Part shown: positions 19,604 to 56,148 of the stretch, piece after piece
Layout: every line of letters begins with the position of its first letter
Position numbering within the stretch: position 1 is the first letter of the stretch
DNA from: a virus
Strand: one strand, 5' to 3'
IMG/VR virus record: IMGVR_UViG_3300043449_002710
Span: 159,261 to 223,260 of that record
DNA: 64,000 bases
Notes under the pieces: model-generated
What the model was told of the DNA's origin: nothing
The model's input: the letters and a program-made list of their open reading frames with translations, nothing else
Database searches by the model: none
Program-made: the position numbers and the translations under genes

Positions 19604-21172
19604 ATGAGAGCCTACTTTAAATTCCCCACCCTTGCTGCGATTGTTCTAGGGCGTAATGTTGTCAACGTTCCTGGGATTGAGGACTTTGTCGAAAAATTCG
19701 AGCAAAACGATCCAAGAATCGACAACTGGCTGAAGCGGAATCTGAGGAATTGGCTCATCAAGGATTACGACCGTTTCAGGCAGATCACACACCAAGAAGG
19801 AAACCCCGACTGGGTAGGCAAGGCCTTGGAGCGCGGTGAGAAAGTCTATGAAGTCAGACTTGATCGAGAGATCTTTGACAAGATCTCTCATGTGATCGAT
19901 TGGTTCAAATCGGACGACTCGCCTAAAAGGCTGGATGCCGTAACGGTGCCCGAAGCCCTCAAGCAATCGGACGCCTGGACTGAGAAGCTTACCAAAAAGA
20001 AAGTCGATCAAGGGATTGCTCTTGCGGGAGAAGAGATTTTTAAAAAGTACGGTGACGGGTATTCTTGGCGCAAATTGGTTTCCGAAGAAGCTTTGGTTCT
20101 TGAAGGAAAGAAAATGGGCCATTGCGTGGGCGGTTACTGGAGTTCTGTGCAATCAGGGGAGACCGAGATCCTTTCCTTACGCGACCCTAAAAACGAACCT
20201 CACTGCACAGTTGAAATTAGCCACAACGAAGTACGTCAAATCAAAGGCAAGCAAAACAAATCGGTCATCAAAGAGTATTGGTCTTATGCACAAGACCTTT
20301 TGAAAACTTTGAAAGAAAACGGCGTTTATGTCGGTGCTAACAACTTATCCAATATTGGTCTCTATGAGATCGATGGAAAGATTGTCACTTTCAAAGAACT
20401 TGTAGCAAACCTAGACTTAGTGAAAGCTCTTTTGAAAAAACATTTCGGTATTGATGTGACGGATGAAATGCAAGTCCAAGTTACCGAAGATGGAATTGAA
20501 GTCGGATCTAAATTTGTGGATATCCTTTTGGGGTTTTTGCCTCTTCCACGTAGACAAATTGAAGCCTATAAAAATCTCATGGAGGATTCTTACGACACAG
20601 AATTTTCCATTCACGACCACGATGTCACCGATCTCTATGACTATGTAGAAAAGCATTACCCCAAGGCTTACAAAAGATTGGTGAAGCTTCTTGAAAGTGT
20701 CGCAACCGAGGAAGAAGCTAAAAACGAAGACTACTTGAGCCACCGCTCGGCAAGCACTTTCTTGAAGGTGTATTCCGATGAATTGCAGCCGATTTATGAT
20801 GCCGCGATCTCAGGAATCTCTGACGGCTGGAGTGTTGGAACACAAGACGCTGCTCACAAATACGTCAAAGATAAATTGTCGGAGTACGGTTGGCTGTGCG
20901 ATTCCTATACTTCCGAAGATGGAGACGGTACAGTTTGGCTTCATCTCAGTTCTAGCGCAATTGCGGATGGTTATTTAGGTGATCTCTACAAAGACCCCTA
21001 CGGAAGAAGAGATGGCTTTAATAGCGAATTCGATGAAGAAGTTGCCAAGGAGCGCTTTGTCGATGCGCTATTTGAGAATGGTTTCCTAAATCAAGCGGAT
21101 ATGGCGAGTAAGAAAAAATTAAAATCCGCTTTGGAGTATCCGGCTTTGGGAAAAATCCTAACTAGATTTTAA
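19604..21172 (+). CDS. PcfJ-like domain protein carrying YP tags at both ends
   Basis: 522 residues. Residues ~150-215 match the PcfJ-like domain of phages and plasmids: LVLEGKKMGHCVGGYW, EILSLRDPKNEPHCTVEI, QIKGKQNK. The function of that domain is unknown. The N-terminus (MRAYFKFPTLAAIVL) and the C-terminus (LEYPALGKILTRF) both carry the YP tag shared by small proteins in this window. The C-terminal half is unrecognised. No strong ribosome site precedes the ATG; the GGTTATTTT element abuts it. Confidence 0.75.
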   Translation: MRAYFKFPTLAAIVLGRNVVNVPGIEDFVEKFEQNDPRIDNWLKRNLRNWLIKDYDRFRQITHQEGNPDWVGKALERGEKVYEVRLDREIFDKISHVIDWFKSDDSPKRLDAVTVPEALKQSDAWTEKLTKKKVDQGIALAGEEIFKKYGDGYSWRKLVSEEALVLEGKKMGHCVGGYWSSVQSGETEILSLRDPKNEPHCTVEISHNEVRQIKGKQNKSVIKEYWSYAQDLLKTLKENGVYVGANNLSNIGLYEIDGKIVTFKELVANLDLVKALLKKHFGIDVTDEMQVQVTEDGIEVGSKFVDILLGFLPLPRRQIEAYKNLMEDSYDTEFSIHDHDVTDLYDYVEKHYPKAYKRLVKLLESVATEEEAKNEDYLSHRSASTFLKVYSDELQPIYDAAISGISDGWSVGTQDAAHKYVKDKLSEYGWLCDSYTSEDGDGTVWLHLSSSAIADGYLGDLYKDPYGRRDGFNSEFDEEVAKERFVDALFENGFLNQADMASKKKLKSALEYPALGKILTRF

Positions 21173-21173
21173 A

Positions 21174-21202
21174 TTGACTTATTAAGTCAATTAAGTTAAA
21201 AT
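21174..21202 (+). promoter_or_regulatory. Sigma70-like promoter with palindrome, leaderless geometry
   Basis: TTGACT, 17 bases and TAAAAT end six bases before the GTG at 21209. The -35 box lies in a perfect 7-bp palindrome (21174-21180 with 21184-21190), a possible operator. Confidence 0.6.
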
Positions 21203-21208
21203 TCTCCT

Positions 21209-21655
21209 GTGGCAAAAAAAACTCGCCTTAAAAACTATCCGAGTCTTGAAATGGTTTTATCCATGGCCTTTAGTCGGGACCGTTGGGTGGACAAAGTTAG
21301 GCACCGGTTAGAGGGGGCTTTGGGCGAATACGCCAAGCAGAAGTTTGCCGAAGCCATTGGATACACGGGTTGGGATTGGACCATTGAAGTAGAAACGATT
21401 CTGGCAGGTGTTTCGGACTTAATGAACACTAAAAAAGTTCAAACCAAAACAAAATTTGACCGCAAAAAAGCTTTCCAAGAAGCTTACCAAGATGCTCAGG
21501 GCAGTTATGATCAAATCGTCCACGCTCGAAACACCTTGTGTAGAGAGCATCCATTCAACATGGAACAATACCAAAGAATTAGGCTTGTAAAACTAGATGC
21601 CGATACTTTGCTTAGAGAAATGGTTCTTAAATTTCTCCCGGGGATTTTGAATTAA
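21209..21655 (+). CDS. YP-tagged small protein
   Basis: 148 residues from GTG. It begins MAKKTRLKNYPSLEMVL, a clear copy of the YP tag, and continues as an alpha-helical, basic protein without known motifs. No ribosome site is visible, and a sigma70-like promoter lies six bases upstream, so the mRNA is probably leaderless and made early. It heads a short group with the HTH protein at 21703. Confidence 0.65.
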   Translation: MAKKTRLKNYPSLEMVLSMAFSRDRWVDKVRHRLEGALGEYAKQKFAEAIGYTGWDWTIEVETILAGVSDLMNTKKVQTKTKFDRKKAFQEAYQDAQGSYDQIVHARNTLCREHPFNMEQYQRIRLVKLDADTLLREMVLKFLPGILN

Positions 21656-21664
21656 ACACGCCAC

Positions 21665-21693
21665 TTGACCTGCTAAGTCATTTGATATAACAT
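21665..21693 (+). promoter_or_regulatory. Sigma70-like promoter before the HTH gene
   Basis: TTGACC, 17 bases and TAACAT end nine bases before the ATG at 21703. TTGACC..CTAAGTCA resembles the palindrome at 21174-21190, so the same regulator may bind both. Confidence 0.5.
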
Positions 21694-21702
21694 TGCTATA
21701 GC

Positions 21703-22287
21703 ATGTCTTACTCTAAAAAGTTGATTCAGATTAGGTCCAAGAAAAACTGGAGCCAGGAAAAGCTGGCCTCCCACCTGAATGTCAGTTTCGCTACCGTGAA
21801 TCGATGGGAAAATGAAAAATCTGAACCGCAAAGAGAAGCCAGAGAGTCGATTGATGTTTTGTGGGGAAGCCTACAAGAAGAAAACTACCCTGCCCTCAAC
21901 CAAGTCCTCGCGCATTCGAAAAGATCCAAGCTCACCATTCTTTTGGACGAGAACCTTTTTCAGCTCAAGCCAGCCCTAAAAGACTCTGGGTTTAAAGTCA
22001 TCTTAATGAAAAAAGGAACCTCCGACGAGGAGATTAGGGAGCTTGCCGAAGGCACTGCCATCCTCACAACTAATTCCAAAGACTTTATTCCCCACGCTGT
22101 CGCGGACGATTTCGATGTCATCTCGGCGGAACTGATCAAGTTCATCGATACTGAGCCCACTCGTAAAAACCAGACGGTTCAAAAGATAGCCAAAGCCATT
22201 CGAGAAAGTGGGATGGTTTTCACCCGTGGTAATTTCAATTTAGTCGTCCGAGATGACGGATCTTACGAACTCAAACCTTTAGTCTAA
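21703..22287 (+). CDS. XRE-type HTH fused to a PIN-like (DUF5615-type) domain
   Basis: 194 residues. Residues ~6-45 form an HTH of the Cro/CI type (WSQEKLASHLNVSFATVNRW). A YP tag (ENYPALNQVLAHSKRS) follows near 62-78. The rest resembles DUF5615 PIN-like proteins: LTILLDENLF, an acidic pair, and ILTTNSKDF. Those families usually belong to toxin-antitoxin or RNase-fold systems; activity here is unproven. Palindromic boxes at its own promoter suggest autoregulation. Confidence 0.65.
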   Translation: MSYSKKLIQIRSKKNWSQEKLASHLNVSFATVNRWENEKSEPQREARESIDVLWGSLQEENYPALNQVLAHSKRSKLTILLDENLFQLKPALKDSGFKVILMKKGTSDEEIRELAEGTAILTTNSKDFIPHAVADDFDVISAELIKFIDTEPTRKNQTVQKIAKAIRESGMVFTRGNFNLVVRDDGSYELKPLV

Positions 22288-22293
22288 GTTGAG

Positions 22294-22860
22294 TCACTTC
22301 TTAGGCCGCTTAGCTTTAAAGAAAGCTCTCCCTAAGCAAATGGCATCTGCAATGTCGTTGTCTTTGATTTTTAACTCCAGGCCATACATGGCGTTAGCAG
22401 CCCTGACGGACAGGTGCTTTTTAGTAACCCTGCCACGCTTTTTACCGGCTGAGACTTGGCGGTTATTTTTCAGATCCTCTTTGCTCATCCGAAGCTCTAA
22501 GAGCTTTCTCCACTCGCTCGGATCGAGGTAATGAACCTTGACCCCCACAGCCCTAAAGTTCTCCAAAACCGCTTTATGGGTAAATTCTAGGATACGCTGG
22601 GTATGCCTGTTTTTTCCACGTACTGTATTCTCAGCCACTACTTGATCGGGCTTGTACTTACCCCAAAGTTCCATCACCTTGTGAGCCATCTTGTTTGAGG
22701 CATCTAGGATGTTGTAAGGGTACTCGGGCATCTTCTCAGGGTAGCCGTTGACGTTGAAGTTGGGGACCGAGATTTCGATCACCCCAAAATCTCCTAGGTT
22801 ATCATCCTTGATAACTGCCCACCCTGTCGATGTACTTAAATCGAGCGCTAGAATTTTCAC
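22294..22860 (-). CDS. RuvC-like Holliday junction nuclease
   Basis: 188 residues with the RNase H-like RuvC layout: MKILALDLSTSTGWAV supplies the first Asp (D7), VVAEN gives the Glu near 76, and NDIADAICLGRAF near 168-180 gives the late Asp residues. The family cuts four-way DNA junctions; phages use it to resolve branched DNA before packaging. It is convergent with the HTH gene and follows the coiled-coil gene at 22873 by 12 bases, so both are probably co-transcribed. Confidence 0.75.
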   Translation of the reverse strand: MKILALDLSTSTGWAVIKDDNLGDFGVIEISVPNFNVNGYPEKMPEYPYNILDASNKMAHKVMELWGKYKPDQVVAENTVRGKNRHTQRILEFTHKAVLENFRAVGVKVHYLDPSEWRKLLELRMSKEDLKNNRQVSAGKKRGRVTKKHLSVRAANAMYGLELKIKDNDIADAICLGRAFFKAKRPKK

Positions 22861-22872
22861 ACTGATGTTTTA

Positions 22873-23283
22873 CTAATCCACTTTGGATTTCAAAGCGCCC
22901 GACTCCATGTGCTTTCTGAGAGTCTTCATCATGAGCTTGCACTTCTTGCCGCGATCCTTGATCTCTTGCCGCCAGGATTTCACGTAGTAAGCGAGATCCT
23001 CTTTGGCTTGAAGATGATCTTGAGTCATGTGGTTGAGCTTCACTTCTTCAAGCTTTCTTTTAGCCTCAATCACATCGGGTTCTTGCTCAAGCTTTTCCTT
23101 GTGCGCTTTCAGTTCTTCTTCGAGGTCGAGCTTCTTGGCGTCATTCTTGAGCATCTCTTTGGACCGCTCAAGCATCAGTTGCTCACGAGCAGCTTCAATC
23201 GCCAAATCCTCAGGCTTCATGGCGTTGATCGCGTCCACGACTTCCTGAGGAAGGTCACCCTTCTTCTTAGGTTTCTTAGCCAT
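22873..23283 (-). CDS. Coiled-coil protein
   Basis: 136 residues, highly charged and almost wholly helical, with a long coiled coil at about residues 28-100. No family is recognised. It lies just upstream of the RuvC-like gene in the same direction. Confidence 0.6.
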   Translation of the reverse strand: MAKKPKKKGDLPQEVVDAINAMKPEDLAIEAAREQLMLERSKEMLKNDAKKLDLEEELKAHKEKLEQEPDVIEAKRKLEEVKLNHMTQDHLQAKEDLAYYVKSWRQEIKDRGKKCKLMMKTLRKHMESGALKSKVD

Positions 23284-23364
23284 GCTTCCCCCTAGGCTCT
23301 CTCAAATTGATTTTGAAATCACGCTAGGGGATTTCGGATCGTCTGTCAAATCAAAGAACCCGAC

Positions 23365-23853
23365 TCACCGCTTCTTAAGCTTGGCCTTTTTCATGGTCGG
23401 GTATTCCATCTCCGCTTTAGCGCGAGCTTTTTTAGCTAAAGTTTCTTTTTCCTTTTTAGTCAACCGCTTCACTTTGGCTTTAGAAGCTTTTGCTCTTTTT
23501 CCCTTTTTGACTTTGGCTTCGATGACTTCCGAAACAGAAGCAAAGATCGAGGCAAGTCCTGGGTAGCGATTGGAATCCACTTGAACCTTGGTCACCATTT
23601 CTTTGACTGCACCACTTTTCTTCACAAGATTCTCCAGTACGGGTTCAATCGCTTCCAAGGCTTCGTCTGCCCACTTGCGGTCGAGATCCTTGGTGGTTTC
23701 TTCAAGCTGATCGTAAGGAACAAAAGATTGCTCCCAACGAGCGCTGCGCTCGGCACTAACTTCGGCTTTGACAGCCTTTGCCCAGTGAACCCACGCCTCG
23801 TGAAAAACTTCAGCCAAGGATTCTTTGATCTGATCTTTTGTTTCTTTGTCCAT
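23365..23853 (-). CDS. RyR-domain-like protein with basic tail
   Basis: About 162 residues from ATG 23853, chosen because GAGG sits eight bases upstream and overlaps the previous stop region. Residues ~10-75 (HEAWVHWAKAVKA, RWEQSFVPYDQLEE, KDLDRKWADEAL) match the RyR-like domain found in phages. The C-terminal third is Lys-rich and ends EMEYPTMKKAKLKKR, a possible degenerate C-terminal YP tag. Function is unknown. It is coupled to the 1220-residue gene. Confidence 0.65.
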   Translation of the reverse strand: MDKETKDQIKESLAEVFHEAWVHWAKAVKAEVSAERSARWEQSFVPYDQLEETTKDLDRKWADEALEAIEPVLENLVKKSGAVKEMVTKVQVDSNRYPGLASIFASVSEVIEAKVKKGKRAKASKAKVKRLTKKEKETLAKKARAKAEMEYPTMKKAKLKKR

Positions 23854-23861
23854 TTTAAACC

Positions 23862-26800
23862 TCAAACATCTTCGTAGGTGCCGTCTTCGAAAAGAATGCC
23901 CACATGATAGCCTTTGTCGATGTGCTCTTCGGCGAGATCCATGGCTTCTTCGTAGGTTTTAACTTTGACTTCTTTTTTTCCTTCACCTTTTTTATCAAGG
24001 ATGACAGTCAGTTCTTCATCTTTCGCGGAAGCTTCTGCCTGATTGTCATATTTCTCGATGATCGACCCGATGTCAGTATACAAGAATTTATTCTTTTCTC
24101 GGTCATATACAACGGTCAAGTTGTAGGTATCGCCCGAGTTAATATACTGAAATCTTGGACGGGTCGGATTGCTTTCATTCGGGTCGTAGGCTTCCACACC
24201 GTGGTATCCCACTAAATCAGAAACGTGCTCCAAGATATTTTCGACATAGCTAGCTGGGTTATAAGTATTGTGCTTTTTGTCGTAATATCTTTCGCCGTTC
24301 TCATAGGCTTTTTTAGCTTCAGCCATGGCCGCTTTCAATTCTTCCAAGGTGGTTGAGGCTTGCGTTTTATAATAAGAAGACTCCACAACAGATATCTGAA
24401 TATCCCCAATAATCTTCTTAATGGTTTCAATCGCCAAATTCGGATCGACCTTACCTGGAATCTTAAGAATGCTATCGTCGTCAAAGGAGATGCCAGAGAC
24501 GCCTAAAGCTTTCTCGATTTTTTTGATCTGATCCAAAGAGACTTTGTCAAAACCAATTTTGAGTGCAAAAGCGGTTTCTGAAGCAGAGGCTTGCGTTTTA
24601 TAAGAAGACTCCGCAGTGAATCCGTCAAACCAATCACCGAACTCTTCGGTGTGTTTGACATTCTCAGGTTTTTCACAAGTCTTAGAGCTAGTCTCGTCGT
24701 CGTTGCACCACTCTTTCGCTTCTTCCAAAGACAGCCCTTTTTTCATGACTTTTTGAGGGTGGCCTTCTTTATAAAAGCGAACGATCTTGTAGGTTTTTTC
24801 TTCTTCTTCTTCTTCCTCGTCTTCATCTGAGGAGGCTTCAATTTTCTCGCTAGAAAGGTATTCCACCAAGTCGTCAGCCACAACCGATCCATCGGCTTCG
24901 ATCACGACCGGAACACCGGCTTCTGGATCTTCACCCATGGACTCAGCCCAGAAGATATAGACTTCATCGGGTTTAGCGGCATACTCGACCCCACGCTGAA
25001 CTTCCATCAGGTCTGGGAGATCGCCCACTTTGGGTTCTTCGATGATGGTTTCATTTCCGGCCTTATCGACCAGGATGAGCTGGCAGCCTTCCATCACCTC
25101 GTCATCACCAAGCTGAAAGTAGTCTCCACGATTAGAGGAAACTTCATCTCCGTTCTCATCGATGAGAACAGCGCTCTTATACTTCACAGCGGGGTTTTCT
25201 TTAACTGGGCCTGAGAAGAAAAAATCTTTCACCCAGAGGCGATCAATCTTGTCGCTGTCTTTGAACACGTCGATGTAAGTGCCTTGATACTTATCGAATT
25301 CGCGGTGTTCGCATTCAAAGCCATGCTTCTCAAGTTCTTTACAGATCTTGTCAAAAGTCTCGTGATCGTAATCCTGATCGGCTTCGCCAGTGGCTTCAAT
25401 CCGAACAGCGGCTTGCACCGAAGATTTGCTGGTCAATTCCATAGTGTTGCCTTTGTCGTCCTCAATGTGTTTTCCGAACGGGCTAGAGTCTTTGACCCAT
25501 TTCCAGTTGCCGGTCCCAAAAAACTTGTTTGCTTTGATTTCGGCAGCTTTAGTTGGATCGCCAGAGATCAAAACCTCCCAAGGCTTTCCGATCTTAGCGG
25601 AGTCTTCGTCATAGATATGGATGCGGTCGAATTCTTTGGCAAGATTCGGGAAAGGATCGGACTCCGCCGACTTGACGGCTTTTTTGGCGGCAGATTCCAT
25701 TTTGTAAGGGCTCACATTGCCGTGATCACTCACGTACCAAACGTTAGGCCAAAAGTTATGCTTTTGCATCCAAGCCTTGGCAGCGGCTTCTGCTTCCTCT
25801 GCCGTATTGAACTCGCCAAGGAATTCCCCATTTTTAATAGAGACAGAAATCTTTGATCCTAGTGGGCCTGAGTCAGAAAAAATAATGTCCTGGTCGTCAG
25901 GTTGATCATCTTGAAATTCTTCTTCTTCGGATTCTTCTTCTTCGGATTCTTCCGTAGCCGAAAGAACACCGTGTTCATAAACGTCTTCAGCAAATTGATC
26001 GAAATCCATCCGATCTTCGATTGAATAGTCTTGATCGAGTTTGTACTGCTGGTACATGGATTCAAGCTCTGTGAGGTTTTCTTTTAACCAAGCTTCAAAA
26101 TCGGTTAGTTCTTCCACGAGTTCTCCGCCTTCCCAGTCTTCTTCAGCACCACTTTTAACTTTGTTTTCAGTCTTGGCTGTCCACATATCTTGGTTCTCGC
26201 TGTCTTCTGGCTTGGTGGTGATGATCAGAGAGTTCCCATCCACGTCACTCCACTCTGGAATAAGAGTGGGGTAGGTTTTCTTGGTTTTGAATCTCCAGAA
26301 AAAATCCGTAAGGTTATCCGCAAACTTTTCTACTCTATGCGGGTCAGCCAAGATGTCTCCGAGTTCCAAAGCCATCTTACCTTCGCCAAGCTCTTTCAAA
26401 GAGTATTCACCGTGGAGTTCTTTATCCAAAAAGATTTCCAACGTGGTTTTGAACTTCTTCAAATCCGAATCCGAATCGTCTTCGGCTCCACCCACAGCTT
26501 GATTTCCATTTTTAGGCAGCCTAACCATTCGGCTGTGTCCGGTGAAACCAAATTTCTTATAAAATGTTCTTAATTTTGAAATCGGCATTTTGTTTTTCTC
26601 TTTAGGTACGGGCTGTAAATCAAGAATCACGCCATACTTATCCGCTAAATCTACAATAAACTGCATTGCTCTTGTGCCTTGGCCTTGTCTTGGTTCTAAG
26701 GCTTGAATCCACTTCAGAGCAACTGAGCGTTCCCCTTTGGGTCCACCCAGCCAAGGTCTCAACTCGATCACCGCTTCATTGTTAAAAATTCTAATTTTAT

Positions 26801-27524: not shown

Positions 27525-27555
27525 TCGAGTATTCCCTAAGTCGTTTGAATTGCTA

Positions 27556-27570
27556 CTAAGAAAATAACTC
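27556..27570 (-). promoter_or_regulatory. GAGTTATTTTCTTAG promoter-like element
   Basis: It lies about 30 bases before the start of the 1220-residue gene and points into it. Confidence 0.45.
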
Positions 27571-29708: not shown

Positions 29709-30263
29709 ATGAAGAAGTATCCCACAGTTACAAAGGTTTTGACGCCTTTACGAGTAGAAGAACCTACTTGGACTCGTGAGAGCTTGCTTCAGAATTTCCG
29801 CCAACGCTCACGCGCCTTAGGCCGTTTGTCTCAAGGGCAAACTAGGATCGAAAGCCTTTATCCCAACGAGCACTTCTCCGATGATGACGTGGCGTTTGGG
29901 TATCTCACGAATTCTCAGGTCGTTGTCGCCTCCGATTTTGAAACCGAAGAGAAGGTCGCAGTCGGCTACATCGCTCATGTAGTGATGCTCGTGGCTTTGG
30001 GTTATGCCAAAGACGAAAACGATACGCACCCTAAGATTGACTATAAGGTTCGTGGGATCGTCAAAGCGGCTTTGCATCGCGATGTCATCTTTTGGGAAAC
30101 TCCAGAGGAACTTCTTTCGGACCCCGATCGGTTCTTTGCCCTTCAGAGCTGCTTGAATGAACTTCTAGATCGTGGGCTCATCTCTTCTGCCAACAAAGTC
30201 TATGGCGCTGGCACTGGCGCTACTCCCTCGCTCGGAACAGTAGGCCAACTTTTGAAAGCCTAA
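29709..30263 (+). CDS. YP-tagged protein
   Basis: 184 residues starting MKKYPTVTKVLTPL, one of the clearest tag copies. The remainder is globular (SDDDVAFGYLTNSQVVVAS, YIAHVVMLVALGYA) and unrecognised. No ribosome site is seen; the promoter six bases upstream implies a leaderless transcript. It is followed by two more tagged genes at 30296 and 31153, so three tagged proteins are made together. Confidence 0.7.
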   Translation: MKKYPTVTKVLTPLRVEEPTWTRESLLQNFRQRSRALGRLSQGQTRIESLYPNEHFSDDDVAFGYLTNSQVVVASDFETEEKVAVGYIAHVVMLVALGYAKDENDTHPKIDYKVRGIVKAALHRDVIFWETPEELLSDPDRFFALQSCLNELLDRGLISSANKVYGAGTGATPSLGTVGQLLKA

Positions 30264-30295: not shown

Positions 30296-31156
30296 ATGAC
30301 TAAACTTAGTGAAAAGAAATACCCTGCTCTCAATAGGATTTTAAGCAGCAACAGCCTGATGATCAACATCGACGGCAAACTTTACACCCCCGAGCAACTC
30401 GACCAGATGGAAGGCGAGGAGATCAAGATCGAGGGCGATCTGATTTTACCCGATCATCTCGGGCTCACTCGATTTCCTGCCTGGGTATCTCGATGCGTGG
30501 TCTTAGGTAGTTTTTTATGCCCTCGGAACCGGCTCACTTCACTCGAAGGTGCTCCGCAAAGCGTAGGTGGGGATTTTATCTGCTACGATAATCAACTCAC
30601 GACTTTGAAAGGTGGCCCACAAAAGGTGGGCGGGAATTTTTTGTGCGACTCCAATCAACTCACGACTTTGGAAGGGGCTCCTAAAAAAGTGGGTAAAGAT
30701 TTTTCCTGCGCTAGAAACAATCTCACGAACCTCAAAGGCGCACCTCAAAAAATAAACGGCGTTTTTCATTGCGATCAAAACCAACTCACTTCACTCGAAG
30801 GTGCCCCGCAATCAGCGGGAAGTTTTTATTGTACCTCCAACCAGCTCACTACCCTTCGAGGCGCTCCCCAAGTAATCGAAAGTTTTGATTGCACCGACAA
30901 TCAACTGGTGAGTTTAGAAGGCGCACCTGAAAAAACCAGTAAGAGTTTTCGTTGTGGCGTAAACAAGCTCACTAGCCTCAAGGGCGCACCTAAAGAAGTG
31001 GGCTGGGAGTTTGCTTGCTTTGAGAACCAACTCACTTCACTCGAAGGTGCTCCAGCAAAAGTGGGGTGGGGTTTTGACTGCTCCAAGAACGCTAAAAAGT
31101 TCACCAAAAAAGACGTTCAAAACGTCTGTCAGGTGGGTTTGAAAATAAAGGTATGA
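30296..31156 (+). CDS. YP-tagged leucine-rich-repeat-like protein
   Basis: 286 residues. The N-terminus MTKLSEKKYPALNRIL is a tag copy. From about residue 65 there are roughly eleven repeats of about 20 residues with the pattern N-Q-L-T-S/T-L-E/K-G-A-P-x-x-V-G-x-F-x-C. They form a leucine-rich-repeat-like solenoid of a kind seen in large phages. Each repeat has a conserved Cys. Such solenoids usually bind proteins; the partner is unknown. The stop overlaps the next start (ATGA). Confidence 0.75.
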   Translation: MTKLSEKKYPALNRILSSNSLMINIDGKLYTPEQLDQMEGEEIKIEGDLILPDHLGLTRFPAWVSRCVVLGSFLCPRNRLTSLEGAPQSVGGDFICYDNQLTTLKGGPQKVGGNFLCDSNQLTTLEGAPKKVGKDFSCARNNLTNLKGAPQKINGVFHCDQNQLTSLEGAPQSAGSFYCTSNQLTTLRGAPQVIESFDCTDNQLVSLEGAPEKTSKSFRCGVNKLTSLKGAPKEVGWEFACFENQLTSLEGAPAKVGWGFDCSKNAKKFTKKDVQNVCQVGLKIKV

Positions 31157-31608
31157 GTATGAAAAGTTTGAATAAAAGAAAGTTCCCAAAGCTGTCAAAA
31201 GTATTAAGCTACATCGACAAAGCCGTCCCCAAAGAAATGTGTGACTGTGGTGCGACCTCCACGGGAAGCAACATGCACTCGACTTGGTGCAAAGGCGTGA
31301 AACCGGCTGAAGCTTCTAGCCAAGAGATCGAGAAGCTGGCCAAAAAATTCAGCGAGCTTTTGCGCTCGGATCATACCGCCGAAGAGATGGAAGAAGTGAT
31401 TGAAAAAAATCGCGAGCACAAGGCCAACGGAGATAATGGGATCTGCGCTACCCACGATATCTGTGACGCCAACATGGTCATGCTCGATGCTTTTAAAAGC
31501 GTCACCGGCAGAGAACCTAGCTTTTTAACAGACTCCGAAAACGAAGCCGATATGCCGCTTTGGAACAAAGCTTGGGAATTAGCCAAAGCTAATGAGTTCT
31601 GGGTCTAA
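31153..31608 (+). CDS. YP-tagged small Cys-containing protein
   Basis: 151 residues. The start MSMKSLNKRKFPKLSKVL is a tag copy with Phe in the aromatic place. CDCGATSTGSNMHSTWC near residues 33-49 could bind a metal. The rest is helical and unrecognised. It is coupled to the solenoid gene by a 4-base overlap and converges on the endonuclease gene with a 4-base overlap. Confidence 0.7.
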   Translation: MSMKSLNKRKFPKLSKVLSYIDKAVPKEMCDCGATSTGSNMHSTWCKGVKPAEASSQEIEKLAKKFSELLRSDHTAEEMEEVIEKNREHKANGDNGICATHDICDANMVMLDAFKSVTGREPSFLTDSENEADMPLWNKAWELAKANEFWV

Positions 31609-33441: not shown

Positions 33442-34209
33442 ATGGATAATAGGACTATAGTTTTAGGAAGCACAGTGTCAACCGAAGAAACGCGCATCTG
33501 TAAGCTAGATGACGTTCGAAATCAGAATTTTGTTTTAGCTGCGGAAACGAGTGCTGGGCCTTTAAGCAAGACCTTTTTAGAAATCGATTATTCATGGCTT
33601 CCTCTCTGTGCTGACACCTATAAGATTTCTCCGAACATCCAAGACTATGTTTTTGTTCAGGTTCCAATTATAACAAGCGATACTCCAAATCGCAATCTTC
33701 AAAGTTTTCCATTTTTAGAAATTAGTTCCTGGGACGTGAATCAGGGCTCTCCAGTTTATAAAACTTTCGTAGGTAAACCCACCTACACCAACCACAAAAA
33801 CAACACGATCCCGCATCTTGCCAAAGGCGTTCATTTCGACTCAGCCCTCCAGTACGTTCCTAAGTACGACATCTACAAGATCAACGTGCTTTTGGGATTT
33901 GATAAGTCAAAAGATCCGGGCCTGTGTGAAGCGATCCTGAAGAACAAAGGCGTCACCGGCTACTCGATGGGCAGCATGGTGAGTACCTTCCTTGATTCTG
34001 TTACTGGGAAATATATCGGTCTCAACGATCCCGAGTACAAAAAACATCGAGGCGCAATCGACAAAGCAACAGGAAGACTTCGCTACTTGTCTTGTATCGG
34101 AGCCACCTTCTTTGAAACTTCGTGCTTAGGAGATTTCGGTCGAGGCGACCCAGGGGAGCCACCGGCTGATTCAGAAGCTAACAATTTGAATTCATTCGTC
34201 TTTTTGTAA
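33442..34209 (+). CDS. Prohead protease-like protein (T4-type family)
   Basis: 255 residues. FVGKPTYTNHKNNTIPHL near residues 110-127 and KGVTGYSMGSMV near 168-179 match the His and Ser motifs of the prohead proteases of large myoviruses. The usual Cys pair after the Ser motif is not obvious, and a Cys is at LSCIG. In this family the enzyme trims scaffold and head proteins during capsid maturation. No ribosome site is visible. Among the YP-tagged genes it offers a possible processing enzyme for them; that link is inference. Confidence 0.65.
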   Translation: MDNRTIVLGSTVSTEETRICKLDDVRNQNFVLAAETSAGPLSKTFLEIDYSWLPLCADTYKISPNIQDYVFVQVPIITSDTPNRNLQSFPFLEISSWDVNQGSPVYKTFVGKPTYTNHKNNTIPHLAKGVHFDSALQYVPKYDIYKINVLLGFDKSKDPGLCEAILKNKGVTGYSMGSMVSTFLDSVTGKYIGLNDPEYKKHRGAIDKATGRLRYLSCIGATFFETSCLGDFGRGDPGEPPADSEANNLNSFVFL

Positions 34210-34292: not shown

Positions 34293-34433
34293 ATGATCCA
34301 CGCAAATAAATATCCCGTAGTTGCAAAGGCCCTAAAGTCCAAGAAAAAGTCCGAGAAAAAGTCCGATAAAAATTACACTTTAAGCGTTTTGCCTTTCAGC
34401 GCATCACGGGCTATACCTTGGTTAATAAAATGA
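34293..34433 (+). CDS. Truncated YP-tag gene
   Basis: 46 codons: MIHANKYPVVAKALKSKKK, a Lys/Ser-rich stretch and then about 20 residues that look like random read-through. The promoter, GAGG site and tag are intact, but the body is missing; the frame runs into the 3' end of the opposite-strand gene 34373-34639. It looks like a tagged gene cut off by a rearrangement. Confidence 0.5.
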   Translation: MIHANKYPVVAKALKSKKKSEKKSDKNYTLSVLPFSASRAIPWLIK

Positions 34434-34639
34434 TGCTTTGCTAAGATTTCGTTGTTTTCATCGTCACTGTTGCACAGCTCAGTTCCGTAGGTTGTTGTAG
34501 CGATTTGCTCCAACGCCTCCCGAAGCTTCTCTACCTCCATCGCTTGCTTGACGACTCTTCTAAAAACACCGGGATCAATCCTAGTGTGGTCGCGGTCGTT
34601 GTAAAGTTCGTTCAGTTCTTCCATAGAAAGATCGGTCAT
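34373..34639 (-). CDS. Small coiled-coil protein
   Basis: 88 residues from ATG 34639, which has GGAGG six bases upstream. The sequence (EVEKLREALEQIATTTY, IARDALKG) resembles the short accessory coiled coils common in phage early regions. It lies between the truncated tag gene and the methyltransferase fragment and probably arrived with that segment. Confidence 0.6.
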   Translation of the reverse strand: MTDLSMEELNELYNDRDHTRIDPGVFRRVVKQAMEVEKLREALEQIATTTYGTELCNSDDENNEILAKHHFINQGIARDALKGKTLKV

Positions 34640-34666
34640 TTGTCCTCCAGTGCTGCCTTGGCTTTT

Positions 34667-34927
34667 GTGCCTATTTCTGTCATCCGGTTTAGCAACCCCA
34701 ATAATAGTAGATTCCACCCTACCGAAAAACCCGTCCCACTTCTGGAATACCTAATCCGAACTTACACAAACGAGGATGAAACCGTTCTGGATAACTGCAT
34801 GGGTTCAGGCTCAACCGGCGTAGCGGCGGTGAACACAAACCGCCGTTTCATCGGGATTGAAAAAGAGTTGAAGTATTTTGAGATCGCCAAAAAACGGATC
34901 AACGATGCCAAACCTATGTTCCCGTAA
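34667..34927 (+). pseudogene. C-terminal fragment of a DNA (N4/N6) methyltransferase
   Basis: 86 residues at most. RFHPTEKPVPLLEYLIRT and DETVLDNCMGSGSTGVA are the target-recognition-side and AdoMet-binding motif I of beta-class DNA methyltransferases. The catalytic D/N-P-P-Y motif, which comes earlier in this class, is missing. Similarity seems to begin near PISVIRFSN. The fragment cannot be an active enzyme alone. The upstream part appears replaced by the segment that carries 34373-34639. Confidence 0.7.
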
Positions 34928-39384: not shown

Positions 39385-40965
39385 ATGAAACTTTTTCACG
39401 GCACGTCTTCAAAAAAGCTTTCGATAATAAAAAAAGATGGGCTTTTAAATCCTTTTTTAACCAACGATATTAAATTAGCCGAATACTATGCGGATCTGAC
39501 TAGCGAGATGGATGAATCCTCCCCTGTTATCCTTGAAGTTGAAGTTAATAAAAATTTCCTCGTTTACGACAAAGCTGCAATGGATGAGCCTGTTTTAGTG
39601 CCAGAAAAACAAAGAGATCAAGCTTGGGAAAAAGCAGCAAGAGAACACCCAGAGTGGGTGAAAAATGGTTTTATTTGTATCCCAAAAAACGCTTGGGAGT
39701 ATTCTTTAGTTGGTGTGCATTCGGTGCAGTACCGTGGAATTATCCCCGCCAATAAAATTAAAAATAAAGACCCCTCTATCCTGTCCAAAAAATATACAGG
39801 TGCCCCTTCTGTAGACAGCTATCCTGTCACCACTTCTATATTGCGTAGCGGCATAGAAATTGATACATCAGGGATGTGGACGAAAAAGAAATCAGCCAGA
39901 AATTTTACAATGCACTCCTTAGACACAAAGACGAGTACATCAAAATCTTGGGCAAAGAGAAGTACGAGCAATCAATTGCCGAACTTCGCAATCGTCTTGA
40001 CTCGATCGAGTCCCACAAAAAAATTTTGGAAGAGATTAGGAACCTGCCCGAATCCGAGCGATCGAAAATCAATAACTACAGCAGCCTTATCGCCTACCTT
40101 GAAAAACTTTGAAGTAAGGGCAGATTCCTTAGGTGGCCCGGGCTACGGGCTCTCCCAACCCAGCCCCCATCAAAACGGATCGGACACTCCGGTCAGGGAG
40201 GATTCTCTCCCAGCAGGGGCCCCGATGGCCATCCACGAGATGAATCGACGCGGGGTGGAAGTCAAAGAAGCGCTCATGATTCGGCCTTATTATTTAGATA
40301 TGAAGACTCAAACCCCGAAAAAACAATATCCCACACTTTCTGCCATCTTAGCAGCCGAAGCCAAGGAAGAAAGAACCTTGGAAGAAGCTGAGAAGGCTCA
40401 GGGCATGGAAAAGCTTGGGATTGCTTCCCCGGAAGAGTTTGCGGTTAAGTTCAAGGGGAAGCTTCAAGAGTTGGCCGAGGAACATGGGATTGGGGATGCC
40501 ATCGCTTACAGCTTCCGCTCTCGTAAGATCGAACTGATCGGAAGCGATGCCATCCTGCTTCTCGATTACGACATGAACGCTCTTTACACTCGTCCCATGT
40601 ACCCGGTCGATGTGGACGGCATGATTGAACTCGATGAAGAAGACCTCGAATCCGAAGAGACAGAAGAGACAGAAGAGACAGAAACAGAAGAGACAGAAGA
40701 ACCTGAAGCCGAAGAAACAGAAGAAGCTGAATCCGCCGTTCACGCTGGCATGAATCTTTCTCCAGATGAGCCTTTCGACGACGAAACTTCTGCAGAAGAG
40801 TTCAATGAATGGCTTCACAAGTTGCGTCAGGTTTGGGAGTCCTACGAAGGAAAACCAGTTCCCCATTTCGGCAAAGCAGATGAAGATGGCGGTGCCAATT
40901 ATCGTAAGGACTGGGCAAATTTAGTTCAGGCAATGGAAAAGTTTTTAATCGCTTATTACGGATGA
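39385..40965 (+). CDS. Long open frame: ADP-ribosyltransferase-like domain, then a second gene in frame
   Basis: The frame is open for 526 codons but probably is not one protein. Residues 1-160 look like an ADP-ribosyltransferase-fold domain (MKLFHGTSSKKLSIIKKDG, DIKLAEYYADL); the third catalytic residue is not assigned. From codon ~165 to 242 the composition turns Ser/Thr/Lys-rich while a good helical protein appears in the -1 frame (39876-40112). From ATG 40300 a tagged acidic protein begins. I read this as an ART gene with a frame break, followed by a separate gene at 40300. Confidence 0.45.
   Translation: MKLFHGTSSKKLSIIKKDGLLNPFLTNDIKLAEYYADLTSEMDESSPVILEVEVNKNFLVYDKAAMDEPVLVPEKQRDQAWEKAAREHPEWVKNGFICIPKNAWEYSLVGVHSVQYRGIIPANKIKNKDPSILSKKYTGAPSVDSYPVTTSILRSGIEIDTSGMWTKKKSARNFTMHSLDTKTSTSKSWAKRSTSNQLPNFAIVLTRSSPTKKFWKRLGTCPNPSDRKSITTAALSPTLKNFEVRADSLGGPGYGLSQPSPHQNGSDTPVREDSLPAGAPMAIHEMNRRGVEVKEALMIRPYYLDMKTQTPKKQYPTLSAILAAEAKEERTLEEAEKAQGMEKLGIASPEEFAVKFKGKLQELAEEHGIGDAIAYSFRSRKIELIGSDAILLLDYDMNALYTRPMYPVDVDGMIELDEEDLESEETEETEETETEETEEPEAEETEEAESAVHAGMNLSPDEPFDDETSAEEFNEWLHKLRQVWESYEGKPVPHFGKADEDGGANYRKDWANLVQAMEKFLIAYYG
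39876..40112 (+). CDS. Helical 78-residue frame, perhaps the end of the ART gene
   Basis: This frame begins at a GTG and reads DEKEISQKFYNALLRHKDEY... ending SLIAYLEKL. It looks like real protein, while the overlapping frame of 39385-40965 does not. No proper ribosome site precedes the GTG. Either a frameshift separates it from the ART domain or it is made by re-initiation. Confidence 0.5.
   Translation: MDEKEISQKFYNALLRHKDEYIKILGKEKYEQSIAELRNRLDSIESHKKILEEIRNLPESERSKINNYSSLIAYLEKL
40285..40299 (+). promoter_or_regulatory. CTTATTATTTAG promoter-like element
   Basis: CTTATTATTTAGAT runs into ATG 40300 and supports a gene start there. Confidence 0.35.
40300..40965 (+). CDS. YP-tagged acidic protein
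   Basis: 221 residues from ATG 40300. It starts MKTQTPKKQYPTLSAIL, a tag copy. A globular middle (DAIAYSFRSRKIELIGSDA) is followed by a Glu/Thr repeat near residues 118-145 and a C-terminal helical part. The acidic run is encoded by short imperfect DNA repeats and may vary in length. The stop is four bases before the next tagged gene. Function is unknown. Confidence 0.65.
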   Translation: MKTQTPKKQYPTLSAILAAEAKEERTLEEAEKAQGMEKLGIASPEEFAVKFKGKLQELAEEHGIGDAIAYSFRSRKIELIGSDAILLLDYDMNALYTRPMYPVDVDGMIELDEEDLESEETEETEETETEETEEPEAEETEEAESAVHAGMNLSPDEPFDDETSAEEFNEWLHKLRQVWESYEGKPVPHFGKADEDGGANYRKDWANLVQAMEKFLIAYYG

Positions 40966-40969: not shown

Positions 40970-41251
40970 ATGAAAAATCTTAAAAAATACCCTACCCTTT
41001 CCAAAGTCTTGGCCGCCAAATCCACCGTTCAAGCGGGCAATTGGGATATCACAGCCGAAGACTTGGTGGACTTCACCAATAATGTCGAGCCTCTTTACTT
41101 AGAAGCTCAGTCGATGCGGACCATGCGCCAAGCCGAAGCTTTGGCAGAAGAAGTCATCGACGCTTATAAAAAACAATCCCCAGGACATAAGATTGTGACC
41201 GATGTTTCGGAACTTGCCGAGGCGCTCTGGGCTGAATTCAAATCTCAATAA
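40970..41251 (+). CDS. YP-tagged small protein
   Basis: 93 residues starting MKNLKKYPTLSKVLAAKS, the closest match to the tag consensus. After a short link (TVQAGNW) comes a helical domain. It is part of a run of small plus-strand genes (40300-41796) of which three are tagged. No known family. Confidence 0.7.
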   Translation: MKNLKKYPTLSKVLAAKSTVQAGNWDITAEDLVDFTNNVEPLYLEAQSMRTMRQAEALAEEVIDAYKKQSPGHKIVTDVSELAEALWAEFKSQ

Positions 41252-41502: not shown

Positions 41503-41796
41503 ATGAAAAAATACGAAACCGTAGAAAAAGTTATCGCCGTTTCAACAAAAGCTGACGTGTTTAAAGGCGATTTAGGTTATCTCGCTTTGTCACAAAAAGA
41601 AGCAAAGCCTTCTGAATTTTACAGAAGCTTAGAAAAATTTGTGACCATGCTCGCACCTGATCAGGAAGCCGCGAGTGAATGGCTGCAGAAATCCAACCTC
41701 GATATCGAAAACGGGGATAGCTATTACGTCTACGAGGTCAGCATTAAGCTGGTCGGAGAAAAGACGTACTCTAAAGACGAGGAAATGGAAGAGTAA
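41503..41796 (+). CDS. Small protein with degenerate YP tag
   Basis: 97 residues starting MKKYETVEKVIAVS, which keeps the tag pattern but has Glu for Pro. The body is mixed and ends in an acidic tail. It follows the previous stop by three bases. Unrecognised. Confidence 0.6.
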   Translation: MKKYETVEKVIAVSTKADVFKGDLGYLALSQKEAKPSEFYRSLEKFVTMLAPDQEAASEWLQKSNLDIENGDSYYVYEVSIKLVGEKTYSKDEEMEE

Positions 41797-46689: not shown

Positions 46690-46693
46690 ACCT

Positions 46694-48042: not shown

Positions 48043-48044
48043 AC

Positions 48045-49489: not shown

Positions 49490-49496
49490 GGAAGCC

Positions 49497-50690: not shown

Positions 50691-50698
50691 AAAAGAAC

Positions 50699-51226: not shown

Positions 51227-51243
51227 CACCTTGGAGTAGCCGT

Positions 51244-52840: not shown

Positions 52841-52844
52841 TCAA

Positions 52845-53060
52845 TCAAGAAACTGGCATCAATCTCTTGGCGTGATGAGATCTCAAAATGACTTCATGTC
52901 TACGGCGATGAAAAAGATCCGAAGCTTTCTTGGCGGATTCGTAAATCAAATCCAATTGAGTTTGATCCAAACCCCCATGTCTTTTCCCAAGACTCGCGGC
53001 GAAATACAATACCTGAAGGGATTGTCCCAGTTGTTCTAAAAAAAGCTCTTCGTCGTTCAT
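52845..53060 (-). CDS. Small unrecognised protein
   Basis: 71 residues, helical, with a His/Arg-rich end (FHRRRHEVILRSHHAKRL). It converges on the acidic gene with four bases between the stops. No family recognised. Confidence 0.5.
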   Translation of the reverse strand: MNDEELFLEQLGQSLQVLYFAASLGKRHGGLDQTQLDLIYESAKKASDLFHRRRHEVILRSHHAKRLMPVS

Positions 53061-53136
53061 ATTTTGGGTGTCTATAGCAAAAGTAGAGAAACCTTAAAAA
53101 CAAATTTAAAAAAAATTTACGGTTAATGATTCTTAA

Positions 53137-53337
53137 ATGCTTCAAATAATTCTTCACAACCTTCGACTTACGCTCACAGATTTTCTTTTGGCTTTGGCGT
53201 TGAGAGTAATTCCCAAAGACACCCAAGAAGCATTTTTGCTTGCAAAATGCCTTCAATTTTATCTATCTAAAGTCAAATCCCTTGAGCTTGAAAAAGCAGC
53301 AGACAAGTCTCAAGGTGCAGCGAATTTCCCAGAGTGA
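53137..53337 (+). CDS. Small protein with hydrophobic N-terminus
   Basis: 66 residues. The first ~26 (MLQIILHNLRLTLTDFLLAL) are hydrophobic enough for one membrane helix; the rest is polar. No ribosome site is visible. The next ~155 bases to 53492 hold no gene I can support. Confidence 0.4.
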   Translation: MLQIILHNLRLTLTDFLLALALRVIPKDTQEAFLLAKCLQFYLSKVKSLELEKAADKSQGAANFPE

Positions 53338-53492
53338 CTTATGGCAATGGGATACATGGAGAAATTTGCGGCTACTCATGTGGTTGTCTAGGACCCCACG
53401 CCTAGCGACACTCTTGGCAACTAATCCAAGCGACAGATGGAAGCCAAGCGTGGTTGGGAGACGCGACAGAGGGAAACCTCACTCCCAAAACT

Positions 53493-53726
53493 TTACCACC
53501 ACTTGTCTGGGCACTGAGCCTCAATTAATTTTGTTTTTACTTTCATATAACAAAGACATTCCAGGCAGAGATCCCGCTTTTTATCGTACTTCGGGCAAAC
53601 GCTACAGATTTGAAGTCGTTCTTGGGTCACCTTGTTGGTGATTGTGGTTCTTCGAGTAAACAGAAATCGCCAAATCACACGCGCCCAAGTTTGCACGGCA
53701 AGACGGACTGCTTTTATCAACCTCAT
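53493..53726 (-). CDS. Membrane-proximal Cys-rich protein, paralogue of 445-699
   Basis: 77 residues. A basic, Trp-containing, partly hydrophobic N-terminus (AVQTWARVIWRFLF) is followed by CSVCPKYDKKRDLCLECLCY and QCPDKWW. The Cys spacing is the same as in 445-699. It probably binds zinc and may sit at the membrane. Divergent from the tubulin-like gene. Confidence 0.6.
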   Translation of the reverse strand: MRLIKAVRLAVQTWARVIWRFLFTRRTTITNKVTQERLQICSVCPKYDKKRDLCLECLCYMKVKTKLIEAQCPDKWW

Positions 53727-53755
53727 AGGTTTCCTCTACTATTTAAAATAAACGC

Positions 53756-53770
53756 CATTATTTTAGTAAA
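53756..53770 (+). promoter_or_regulatory. CATTATTTTAG promoter-like element
   Basis: It lies about 23 bases before the tubulin-like gene, ahead of its GAGGAG ribosome site. Confidence 0.35.
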
Positions 53771-53793
53771 AAGATTGAAGAGGAGACTTCCCA

Positions 53794-54915
53794 ATGACCG
53801 AAGAAATCATGGATTTGCCAGATATCGAAACCCCAGATCCAGAAGTCTATACGAAGTCTGAGCCTGAGGTGGAAGAAGATCTCAAGAAAACAGCCATCTC
53901 GTTTGGTTTCATTGGAGTCGGTCAAGCGGGTGGCAAAATCGCAGCCGAGTTCTACAACTTAGGTTATCGGAAAGTTGTGGCCGTCAACACCACGAAAAAT
54001 GATTTCATGGGTCTTTCCATCCCTACCAATCGGCATCTAGTCGTTGGAGATGGCTCAGGCGCTGGGAAGAAGCCTGAAGTCGGGGCCAAGGCCGTTCAAA
54101 ACGCCAAGGAAGATATCTTGTCGTTGCTTCGGAAAAGCTTTGGCTCGAACGTGGACAAGATCATTGTCATCGCCTCAGGCGGAGGCGGAACCGGAAACGG
54201 TGGCTGCCTAGAGATGATTCAAATCGCTCAAGACTACATGAAAGAGATCCAAAAAAATCCGGCTCGAAATGTCGGGGCTTTGGTGGCTCTTCCTAAAGAC
54301 TCTGAAAAAGGCGCGGCTCAAATTCATTCGGCCATCCTGATGGAAGCTCTGTTTGAAAAAGCCAAAACGGATCTAGCCCCTTTGATCTTGGTCGATAATG
54401 AGCAGATCGCCAAGCAGTGGCCCAACGCTTCGATTGCCCAGGTATTCTCCATGGCCAACAAGAACGTCTGCGGGCTTCTCGACATTTTCAACACGTTGGC
54501 TTGCCGCCCGAGCCAGTACAGCTCGTTTGACAAAGCTGACCTTTGCTCAGTCTTAGACCACGGTGCGGTGATCTTTGGTTCGACCACCCTAAACGATATT
54601 AGTTCAGGGTCAGCCATTTCTGATGCAATCCGCCAAAACCTCCAGAAGGGGATTTTAGTGGAAGGGATCGACTTATCCACCTCCAAAGCCGGGGCTGGTA
54701 TTTTAGTGGGTTCTTCAGAAATCTTAAACACCCTTCCCTCGTCTTATGTGGACGAAGCCTTTAAGACGTTGGCTCGGGTGATGGGTTCGGACAAAAAAAC
54801 CATCACGGTGCATCAAGGGGTGTTTGAAACAACTAAGCCTAAGCTTTTGCTCTACACAATCTGTGGCGGCGTAGAGTTGCCTACCGTGCGTCTTGAAAAA
54901 CTCAAACGGGGTTAA
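53794..54915 (+). CDS. FtsZ/tubulin-like GTPase
   Basis: 373 residues. After a ~33-residue acidic extension, FGFIGVGQAGGKIA (T1 loop, ~37-50) and IASGGGGTGNGG (T4 glycine-rich loop, ~129-140) match the GTP-binding signature of the tubulin/FtsZ/TubZ/PhuZ superfamily. Phage members can form filaments that position DNA or the replication compartment. The catalytic Asp of the T7 loop cannot be fixed by eye. The gene has a good ribosome site. Whether it polymerises is unknown. Confidence 0.75.
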   Translation: MTEEIMDLPDIETPDPEVYTKSEPEVEEDLKKTAISFGFIGVGQAGGKIAAEFYNLGYRKVVAVNTTKNDFMGLSIPTNRHLVVGDGSGAGKKPEVGAKAVQNAKEDILSLLRKSFGSNVDKIIVIASGGGGTGNGGCLEMIQIAQDYMKEIQKNPARNVGALVALPKDSEKGAAQIHSAILMEALFEKAKTDLAPLILVDNEQIAKQWPNASIAQVFSMANKNVCGLLDIFNTLACRPSQYSSFDKADLCSVLDHGAVIFGSTTLNDISSGSAISDAIRQNLQKGILVEGIDLSTSKAGAGILVGSSEILNTLPSSYVDEAFKTLARVMGSDKKTITVHQGVFETTKPKLLLYTICGGVELPTVRLEKLKRG

Positions 54916-54921
54916 AAAACG

Positions 54922-55731
54922 GTGGAGGAGTATTACAAATGCCTGGGGGCTTCTCCGAAGGATACCCCTCAGGAGCTTCGCAGCAAGTGGCTTAAGAAAT
55001 GCCGTGAGCACCACCCCGACAAGGGGGGAGATCCTGCTCAGTTTCGAGCTGCGACTCACGCCTATAAGATGCTCACTGATGCTTCATATCAACAAGAGCA
55101 TAAAAAAGTAGACCTTAGCGACATCCTGACTTTCAATGTCCGAATGCCCGTCTCTTTCGAAGAAGCCTTCTTTGGGAAGAGTTTGGTCTTCACTTGGAAC
55201 CGGATGGAACTTGATCAAACGCTCACGCCGATCCAGCCAGCCGATGGGAAGCTTGAGCCGCTTTCGATCACCCTAGTCATCCCGCCTGGATCGATGCAAG
55301 GGTTGCGTTTTTCAGAAGCGGGCAAGGGCTTGAGGCTAGGCGAGCATGTCGGGGATGTCCAAGTTCAGATCATCGTGCGAGGGCATCCCAAATTCAAAGC
55401 ACAAGACCTCAACATCCTCTCGGAAGAGAAGGTTCCACTAGAGATGCTCTTGCGCGGCGGAAAGATCGACGTGCAGACGATGTTTGGAATCAAGGAGCTG
55501 AAGATTCCCCCAGGCACCCAGCCCGGCGAGCAGCTCAAGATCAAGCATTGCGGGGTGAATAAAAAAGGAGCGCATCTGGTCACAGTCTTACCTATCTTCC
55601 CCACCGGGCAAGACTTAAAAGACAAAAGAACACTCTCGGATCTCGACATCGACTGGACGGTCGAGGAAGAAAAAGAAGATGCCACGCCGAATGAAGACCT
55701 AGAGATGTTCAACGTCTTTCGGAAGATTTAA
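54922..55731 (+). CDS. DnaJ-type co-chaperone
   Basis: 269 residues from GTG 54922. The J domain (residues 1-60) has YYKCLGASPKDTPQEL and the essential HPD at 31-33. It lacks the Cys-rich zinc domain; the remainder matches the two C-terminal peptide-binding domains of DnaJ/CbpA (LVIPPGSMQGLRF, IPPGTQPGEQLKIKHCG). It would stimulate host DnaK. It follows the tubulin-like gene by six bases, so they are probably co-expressed. Confidence 0.8.
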   Translation: MEEYYKCLGASPKDTPQELRSKWLKKCREHHPDKGGDPAQFRAATHAYKMLTDASYQQEHKKVDLSDILTFNVRMPVSFEEAFFGKSLVFTWNRMELDQTLTPIQPADGKLEPLSITLVIPPGSMQGLRFSEAGKGLRLGEHVGDVQVQIIVRGHPKFKAQDLNILSEEKVPLEMLLRGGKIDVQTMFGIKELKIPPGTQPGEQLKIKHCGVNKKGAHLVTVLPIFPTGQDLKDKRTLSDLDIDWTVEEEKEDATPNEDLEMFNVFRKI

Positions 55732-55755
55732 TCTTATCTAGTGCTCGAAATAGAT

Positions 55756-56148
55756 CTAGTGCGCGATATAGATCTCGTGAGCCATCCTAGTCATGAAGCC
55801 CACCAGTTCCTGGATATTCTGATCAGTCGGGTCAACGCCGAACTGCTCTAAGAGATCGTGCGCCTGAGCCAAAGATTGCAGCGTTTCATTTTGAATGAAT
55901 TGCATCAAAGCTTGTGGGTTTTTGGCTTTGACAAAAGCCCCTGGATGGCTCTCGGTATAGGGATCTAAGCCTTGTTTTTTCAGTTCCGAACGGATGCGCT
56001 CATTGGATTTCTGAACCAAAAGATAGGCCTGATCGATCAAAGCATCCGTCTCATTCCCATCGAGGCCAAAATCCGCCAAGACACGCGCTTTCTGCGCAGA
56101 AGTGACAATTTTCTGCAGAGTAGGATACTTCCGAGAGATCGATTTCAT
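55756..56148 (-). CDS. YP-tagged helical protein
   Basis: 130 residues. MKSISRKYPTLQKIVTSAQ is a clear tag copy; the rest is helical and unrecognised. It is the only clear N-terminal tag copy on the minus strand. A short tandem repeat around its stop (near 55735-55775) shows a small duplication. Confidence 0.65.
   Translation of the reverse strand: MKSISRKYPTLQKIVTSAQKARVLADFGLDGNETDALIDQAYLLVQKSNERIRSELKKQGLDPYTESHPGAFVKAKNPQALMQFIQNETLQSLAQAHDLLEQFGVDPTDQNIQELVGFMTRMAHEIYIAH

Follow-up and report, generated by a model that had tools for sequence, protein, structure and literature searches.

The internal proteins of phage T4 enter the core of the head by way of an N-terminal capsid-targeting sequence (CTS) of 10–19 residues, which is cut off by gp21 before the proteins are injected into the host (PMC9026906, PMC12373910). 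In Ip1, Ip2 and Ip3 this leader is the sole shared part, and each of the three blocks a GmrSD restriction enzyme (PMC9026906, PMC12373910). Here we describe a label of similar size, the YP tag, in a 64,000-nucleotide stretch of viral DNA (hereafter, the window), which comprises positions 159261–223260 of the 223,260-bp IMG/VR record IMGVR_UViG_3300043449_002710. The YP tag is about ten residues long (Tyr-Pro-Thr-Leu-x-Lys-Val-Leu-Ala) and is carried by more than 20 largely unrelated proteins. A first-pass annotation had suggested that the motif sorts its bearers into the capsid. We concluded from sequence comparisons that the motif is very likely a sorting tag, and that it probably (we estimate roughly 0.68) acts as a T4-CTS-like capsid-targeting sequence for packaged and injected proteins, one that evolves by lineage.

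Like the CTS of T4 proteins IPI, IPII, IPIII and Alt, the YP tag spans about ten residues, sits on unrelated accessory proteins, and occurs together with a head maturation protease; some of the T4 cargo also counters restriction (PMC9026906, PMC12373910). Two features of a T4-type CTS, a short shared N-terminal peptide and a phage-encoded head maturation protease, are both present. The differences are that KYPTLxKVLA is unlike the MKTYQEFI form of T4, that the phage belongs to a different clade, and that the YP tag is not strictly N-terminal (three copies are C-terminal and two internal). Four copies of the MKT-[YF]-[QK]-EF form, exact or nearly so, occur in T4, compared to the more than 20 YP-tagged proteins. 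Cleavage would probably occur after [LVI]-x-A here, as opposed to [LI]-x-E in T4.

Other known systems share some of these features. Encapsulin cargo-loading peptides are also short and bring unrelated cargo into a shell of the HK97 fold, but they differ from the YP tag in sequence, context and shell type. SPN3US and phiKZ, likewise jumbo phages, package many proteins, encode a morphogenetic protease, and have propeptides that were proposed to target the head, but these propeptides are mostly at least 100 residues long, lack a common short motif, are cut at A/S-x-E type sites and belong to another lineage (PMC5694885, PMC10052503). Polyvalent proteins, known from phages and from conjugative elements, have overlapping domains (ART, GNAT, NUDIX, ArdA) and are predicted to be co-injected with DNA, but they are large, multidomain proteins with no described address peptide, whereas the YP-tagged proteins are small and mostly have a single body (PMC5512222). 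A term search of a limited literature found no mention of tags of this kind in two jumbo-phage overviews (PMC13282480, PMC7824862).

Proteins were called from the window and four more stretches of the record (129 kb and 39,795 residues altogether), and the remaining ~94 kb were covered by a pattern search only. Window coordinates are used below, and a g number denotes a coordinate in the full record. The strict motif, [YF]P.[LVI]..[VIA][LIVF], occurred 23 times in the called proteins, whereas 200 residue-shuffled sets averaged 1.4 occurrences and never exceeded 5. A degenerate DNA pattern of the motif gave 23 matches in the whole record versus 4 with the reversed control. When N-terminal 10-mers from the window were clustered without prior knowledge of the motif, the YP peptide was the top cluster, having 7 partners versus no more than 2 in shuffles. 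All ten motif sequences of the first-pass annotation were recovered at or beside the positions listed there, and nine of them hold as tags; the tenth, at the N-terminus of protein 19604, is doubtful. The N-terminal starts that it had chosen at 40300 and 34293 are right, even though the mechanical open reading frames (ORFs) begin further upstream. At least nine more tagged proteins lie elsewhere in the record, two of them with a C-terminal tag (g135123, SYPTVMSVLRG, and g143540, NYPTISKVIKG, each running up to the stop codon), but the YP tag was not enriched in 43 protease-related records (six named phages and 37 IMG/VR records). Searching IMG/VR with the exact pattern returned six matches, all by chance and none from a tagged phage, and a search with the tagged bodies revealed no close relatives among viral contigs.

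We compared 22 tagged proteins by all-against-all BLAST with the tag masked. Only three pairs were similar (31153/g46630, 30296/g40812 and g126652/g127074), and the remaining bodies were unrelated. All four proline codons are used for the tag's invariant proline, and the mean nucleotide identity between pairs of tags is 52%. Because the masked bodies are dissimilar and the codons so diverse, the tag is not a duplicated piece of DNA, nor is it a single domain; it is the peptide that is under selection.

The tag mostly starts 3 to 12 residues from the beginning of the protein, so the placement at the N-terminus given by the first-pass annotation describes most copies. It fails for three proteins with the tag at the extreme C-terminus (19604, g135123 and g143540) and for two with an internal tag (21703 and 23365). 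One joint between tag and body is visible. Protein 31153 (31153–31608, plus strand, 151 residues; tag KFPKLSKVLSY at 31180–31212) begins with ~53 residues that comprise the tag and a Cys-rich module, CDCGATSTGS..MHS.WC, and continues with a stretch (residues 54–151, matching phrog_21393) that resembles nearly the full length of a 98-residue protein found on its own in Xanthomonas phages DoCa5 and Mallos. The tag is thus set before a protein that is complete by itself in other phages. The paralog g46630 shares the first 50 residues, followed by a different body. Unrelated bodies, protein-level selection, varied position, and a tag placed ahead of an otherwise complete protein give good support to the sorting role first proposed.

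The gene at 33442–34209 (plus strand), earlier described as prohead-protease-like, proved to be a genuine head maturation protease. It matched PHROG 18299 with E 3.3e-42, and its His118 and Ser175 are invariant among seven aligned members. Its relatives occur in PaBG, Dickeya phage JA29, BcepSaruman, Motura, Pori-4, GR11A and mycobacteriophages, and the profile match together with the conserved catalytic residues places it in the PaBG/Motura/Saruman/JA29 group (phrog_18299). Using the protease alignment as a query yielded 63 IMG/VR loci. Among the closest proteases found was that of relative G001 (45%), and the proteases of Motura and relative G032 are 54% identical.

We searched these relatives by the same prior-free N-terminal clustering with shuffled controls, and several carry tags of their own, on about 4 to 11 proteins each. 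G032 has KLNAA.RLxA (10 partners versus no more than 2 in shuffles), G008 has YQGQ.Y.LA (6 versus no more than 2), and Motura has EIQAA.RLxA (8 partners, three of which are paralogs, versus no more than 2). Smaller clusters were found in G029, with [KR]KI[TS]VR[IF] (4 versus 2), and in G004, with IL..RR[VI].AD (3 versus 1). In G033 the peptides EYVNINIESA and IPASVA..LNI had 7 partners versus 2, and some of the bearers are paralogs. A repeated C-terminal motif in G025 was rejected as a tag, as its bearers are a family of paralogs. The form [IL][QN]AA.RLxA is common to Motura and G032; therefore, the tag is inherited and drifts. The tags of five lineages (KYPTLSKVLA, KLNAATRLAA, EIQAAVRLQA, RILAKRRVQA and KYQGQIYVLA) align without gaps as [basic]-phi-x-[small]-x-x-[KR or Y]-[LVI]-x-[AS].

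The complete 221-kb record of Motura, an isolated Achromobacter phage, ties its tag to the head genes. The Motura tag pattern occurred at 12 sites versus 2 for the control, and 11 of the 12 lie on one strand within a 32-kb block (113–145 kb) that contains the major capsid protein (120.2–121.3 kb) and the protease (123.8–124.5 kb). One of these eleven, at 119.9 kb, falls inside the gene adjoining the major capsid protein and may be a chance match.

The bodies that could be assigned also resemble injected proteins. Protein g143540, with its C-terminal tag, matches the S-adenosylmethionine (SAM) lyase family PF23780 (37.1 bits versus a cut-off of 28, E 3.5e-9). SAM lyase activity strips restriction-modification enzymes of their cofactor. 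A NUDIX hydrolase is tagged in both G032 and G033, and the two bodies are homologous while their tags differ, as would be expected if the address were adapted to each phage. A GNAT-like protein is also among the tagged proteins of G032. These cargo types (SAM lyase, NUDIX, GNAT) are typical of injected proteins. The three tagged Motura paralogs have an invariant YR.T, a serine in ILSF, and an E-x-E pair, residues that resemble those of R-S-ExE ADP-ribosyltransferases, the class that includes T4 Alt.

The capsid-targeting reading is based, indirectly, on the genuine protease of a clade in which several members have their own tags, the Motura block, the cargo types, and the T4 precedent. According to this reading, the tag would be a short and probably helical address peptide, in which the proline caps the N-terminal end of the helix, Y-L-V-L form a hydrophobic face and the Lys adds a basic residue. 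A single-sequence structure prediction of low confidence, which was not used further, drew the 31153 tag as a helix. A partner in the prohead (a scaffold, core or capsid protein) would bind the tag during assembly, and because of this binding the cargo would be enclosed in the head, later to enter the host together with the DNA. Besides at least one predicted anti-defense enzyme (the SAM lyase), the cargo would probably include further takeover proteins. The head maturation protease would probably trim many of the N-terminal tags at their [VI]-L-[AS] end; the recurrent [LVI]-x-A ending suggests a site suited to such a protease. Most members have LxA or LxE near residues 50–68 in the N-terminal arm of the major capsid protein, and maturation reportedly shortens the major capsid protein of PaBG by ~20% (PMC7412058). 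Relatives would use the same arrangement, their tags having drifted along with their own receptors.

Several points weigh against capsid targeting. Tagged genes in this genome are scattered and do not cluster by the head genes, so that the link to the head is weaker for the window phage itself than for Motura. The C-terminal tags end in [KR]G or TRF and have no alanine like that of the presumed cleavage site. In the parts examined, no tag was recognizable in seven relatives (G001, G006, G034, G009, G010, G005 and G019), nor in PaBG, Pori-4, GR11A and most of Saruman. Because so many relatives with the same protease lack a recognized tag, the feature is unevenly distributed or, in places, has diverged beyond what the clustering method can recognize. 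Few of the cargo bodies have a known function, and the ADP-ribosyltransferase reading of the Motura paralogs is a lead only, with the residues named above as its sole basis; searches of Pfam, PHROGs and the PDB gave no match for it. A replication-type enzyme may be tagged in G033, where an NAD-dependent DNA ligase with a BRCT domain (L165, 4453–6663) starts with the near-tag peptide MEYIIIAALAKYNK, and such an enzyme would be harder to reconcile with tags that serve injected effectors only. Finally, a literature search found no virion proteome for Motura.

The main rival explanation is that the tag is a docking motif for an intracellular factor of phage or host (a polymerase, clamp, protease adaptor, condensate or compartment), with its bearers left unpackaged. 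Tag positions at either terminus or inside the protein are typical of docking motifs, the scattering of the tagged genes in this genome agrees with such a role, and a tubulin/FtsZ-like GTPase encoded by the phage (53794–54915, plus strand; PF00091, E 8.7e-10) makes a spatial organization of the cell conceivable. We nonetheless consider this explanation unlikely. Among the genes read in the window, those recognized as replication or tail genes carry no YP tag, the Motura tags are concentrated in the block of capsid and protease genes, and the clade in which tags recur is defined by a head gene, though our search was centered on that gene. Moreover, the record has no match to PF00562 and hence no sign of the multisubunit RNA polymerase expected of nucleus-forming phages; chimallin itself was not searched for.

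Two further explanations would deny the peptide any role as an address, and both seem far less probable. The motif might be the shared N-terminal piece of one duplicated homologous domain, as the three related pairs and the alignment of the 19604 N-terminus with PcfJ homologs would allow; this idea is already largely refuted and very improbable, given that the other tagged proteins are dissimilar once the tag is masked, that tags also occur C-terminally and internally, that their nucleotide identity is so low, and that other lineages place different tags on equally varied bodies. Least credible of all is a leader that aids translation or stability of late gene products. Most copies do lie where a leader would, within the first 3 to 12 residues, but the C-terminal and internal copies do not, it is residues and not codons that are conserved, and most genes have no tag.

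If capsid targeting is correct, the set of injected proteins of a large and poorly known phage group would be readable from genome sequence, and the bodies that carry a repeated peptide would be candidate injected effectors, likely rich in counter-defense functions. The T4 strategy would then be a single example of a broader strategy that evolves fast, and new short portable signals would be available for loading proteins into phage heads. A bolder proposal, which we hold tentatively and at somewhat under even odds, is that a jumbo-phage clade not belonging to the T4 group loads its capsids by an address that works at the N-terminus, at the C-terminus or between domains. This address would drift with its receptor from one lineage to the next, giving every phage a code of its own, and a gene that acquired the code would thereby turn into an injected effector. 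Sequence alone would in that case list a phage's injected counter-defense repertoire.

Along the window, the first tagged protein is the 522-residue PcfJ-like protein at 19604–21172 (plus strand; E 5e-15 for the PcfJ-like domain, while the C-terminal half weakly matches ArdA at E 0.0095, below the curated cut-off). The first-pass annotation overlooked that it terminates in ALEYPALGKILTRF at 21134–21169, immediately before the stop codon; this C-terminal tag is EYPALGKILTRF. The N-terminal KFPTLAAIVLG of the same protein (19619–19651) is doubtful as a tag because FKFPTLAAIV can be aligned to the interior of PcfJ homologs from streptococci, and it may be part of the PcfJ domain. Next, on the plus strand, are a 148-residue protein (21209–21655) with KNYPSLEMVLS near its N-terminus (21233–21265) and the protein at 21703–22287, in which the internal tag NYPALNQVLAH (21883–21915) stands between an N-terminal helix-turn-helix and a DUF5615-like domain; a TTG start is possible 8 residues ahead of this tag. 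The other internal tag, RYPGLASIFAS (23536–23568, minus strand), is at residue 100 of a 166-residue protein (23365–23865).

Two N-terminal tags precede 31153 on the same strand: KYPTVTKVLTP (29715–29747) on a 184-residue protein (29709–30263), and KYPALNRILSS (30317–30349) on a 286-residue repeat protein (30296–31156). Just downstream of the protease, KYPVVAKALKS (34308–34340) begins a short basic ORF from the ATG at 34293, which may be degenerate. Indeed, the region 34293–34927 (plus strand) looks degenerate as a whole, the tagged ORF being followed by a C-terminal fragment in another frame that resembles a DNA methyltransferase. QYPTLSAILAA (40324–40356, plus strand) tags an acidic 221-residue protein that runs from the ATG at 40300, a few codons ahead of the tag, to 40965. 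The mechanical ORF 39385–40965 fuses this gene to an upstream stretch (39385–40300), which has a KptA-like start (FHGTSS...) and then an odd composition in frame with the tagged gene, and which may be a decayed or frameshifted gene. An ADP-ribosyltransferase domain on the tagged protein was rejected because the KptA-like match lies in that upstream part and the tagged gene starts at 40300. Two smaller proteins follow on the plus strand, one of 93 residues (40970–41251) with KYPTLSKVLAA (40985–41017) and one of 97 residues (41503–41796) with the variant KYETVEKVIAV (41509–41541). The last is a 130-residue protein on the minus strand (55756–56148) with KYPTLQKIVTS (56098–56130).

Three minor observations concern other genes. 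A tblastn search of 50,697 phage records gave no match to the tubulin/FtsZ-like GTPase at 53794–54915. In Campylobacter phage CP220, a SAM-lyase homolog (L174, 214–843) starts with MKFKDYIKSL, which is reminiscent of a T4-type CTS; a search with one narrow pattern found one copy of such a start in the CP220 genome. On the minus strand of the window, 11737–15964 encodes several proteins with long collagen-like G-P-T repeats that are probably tail fiber parts.

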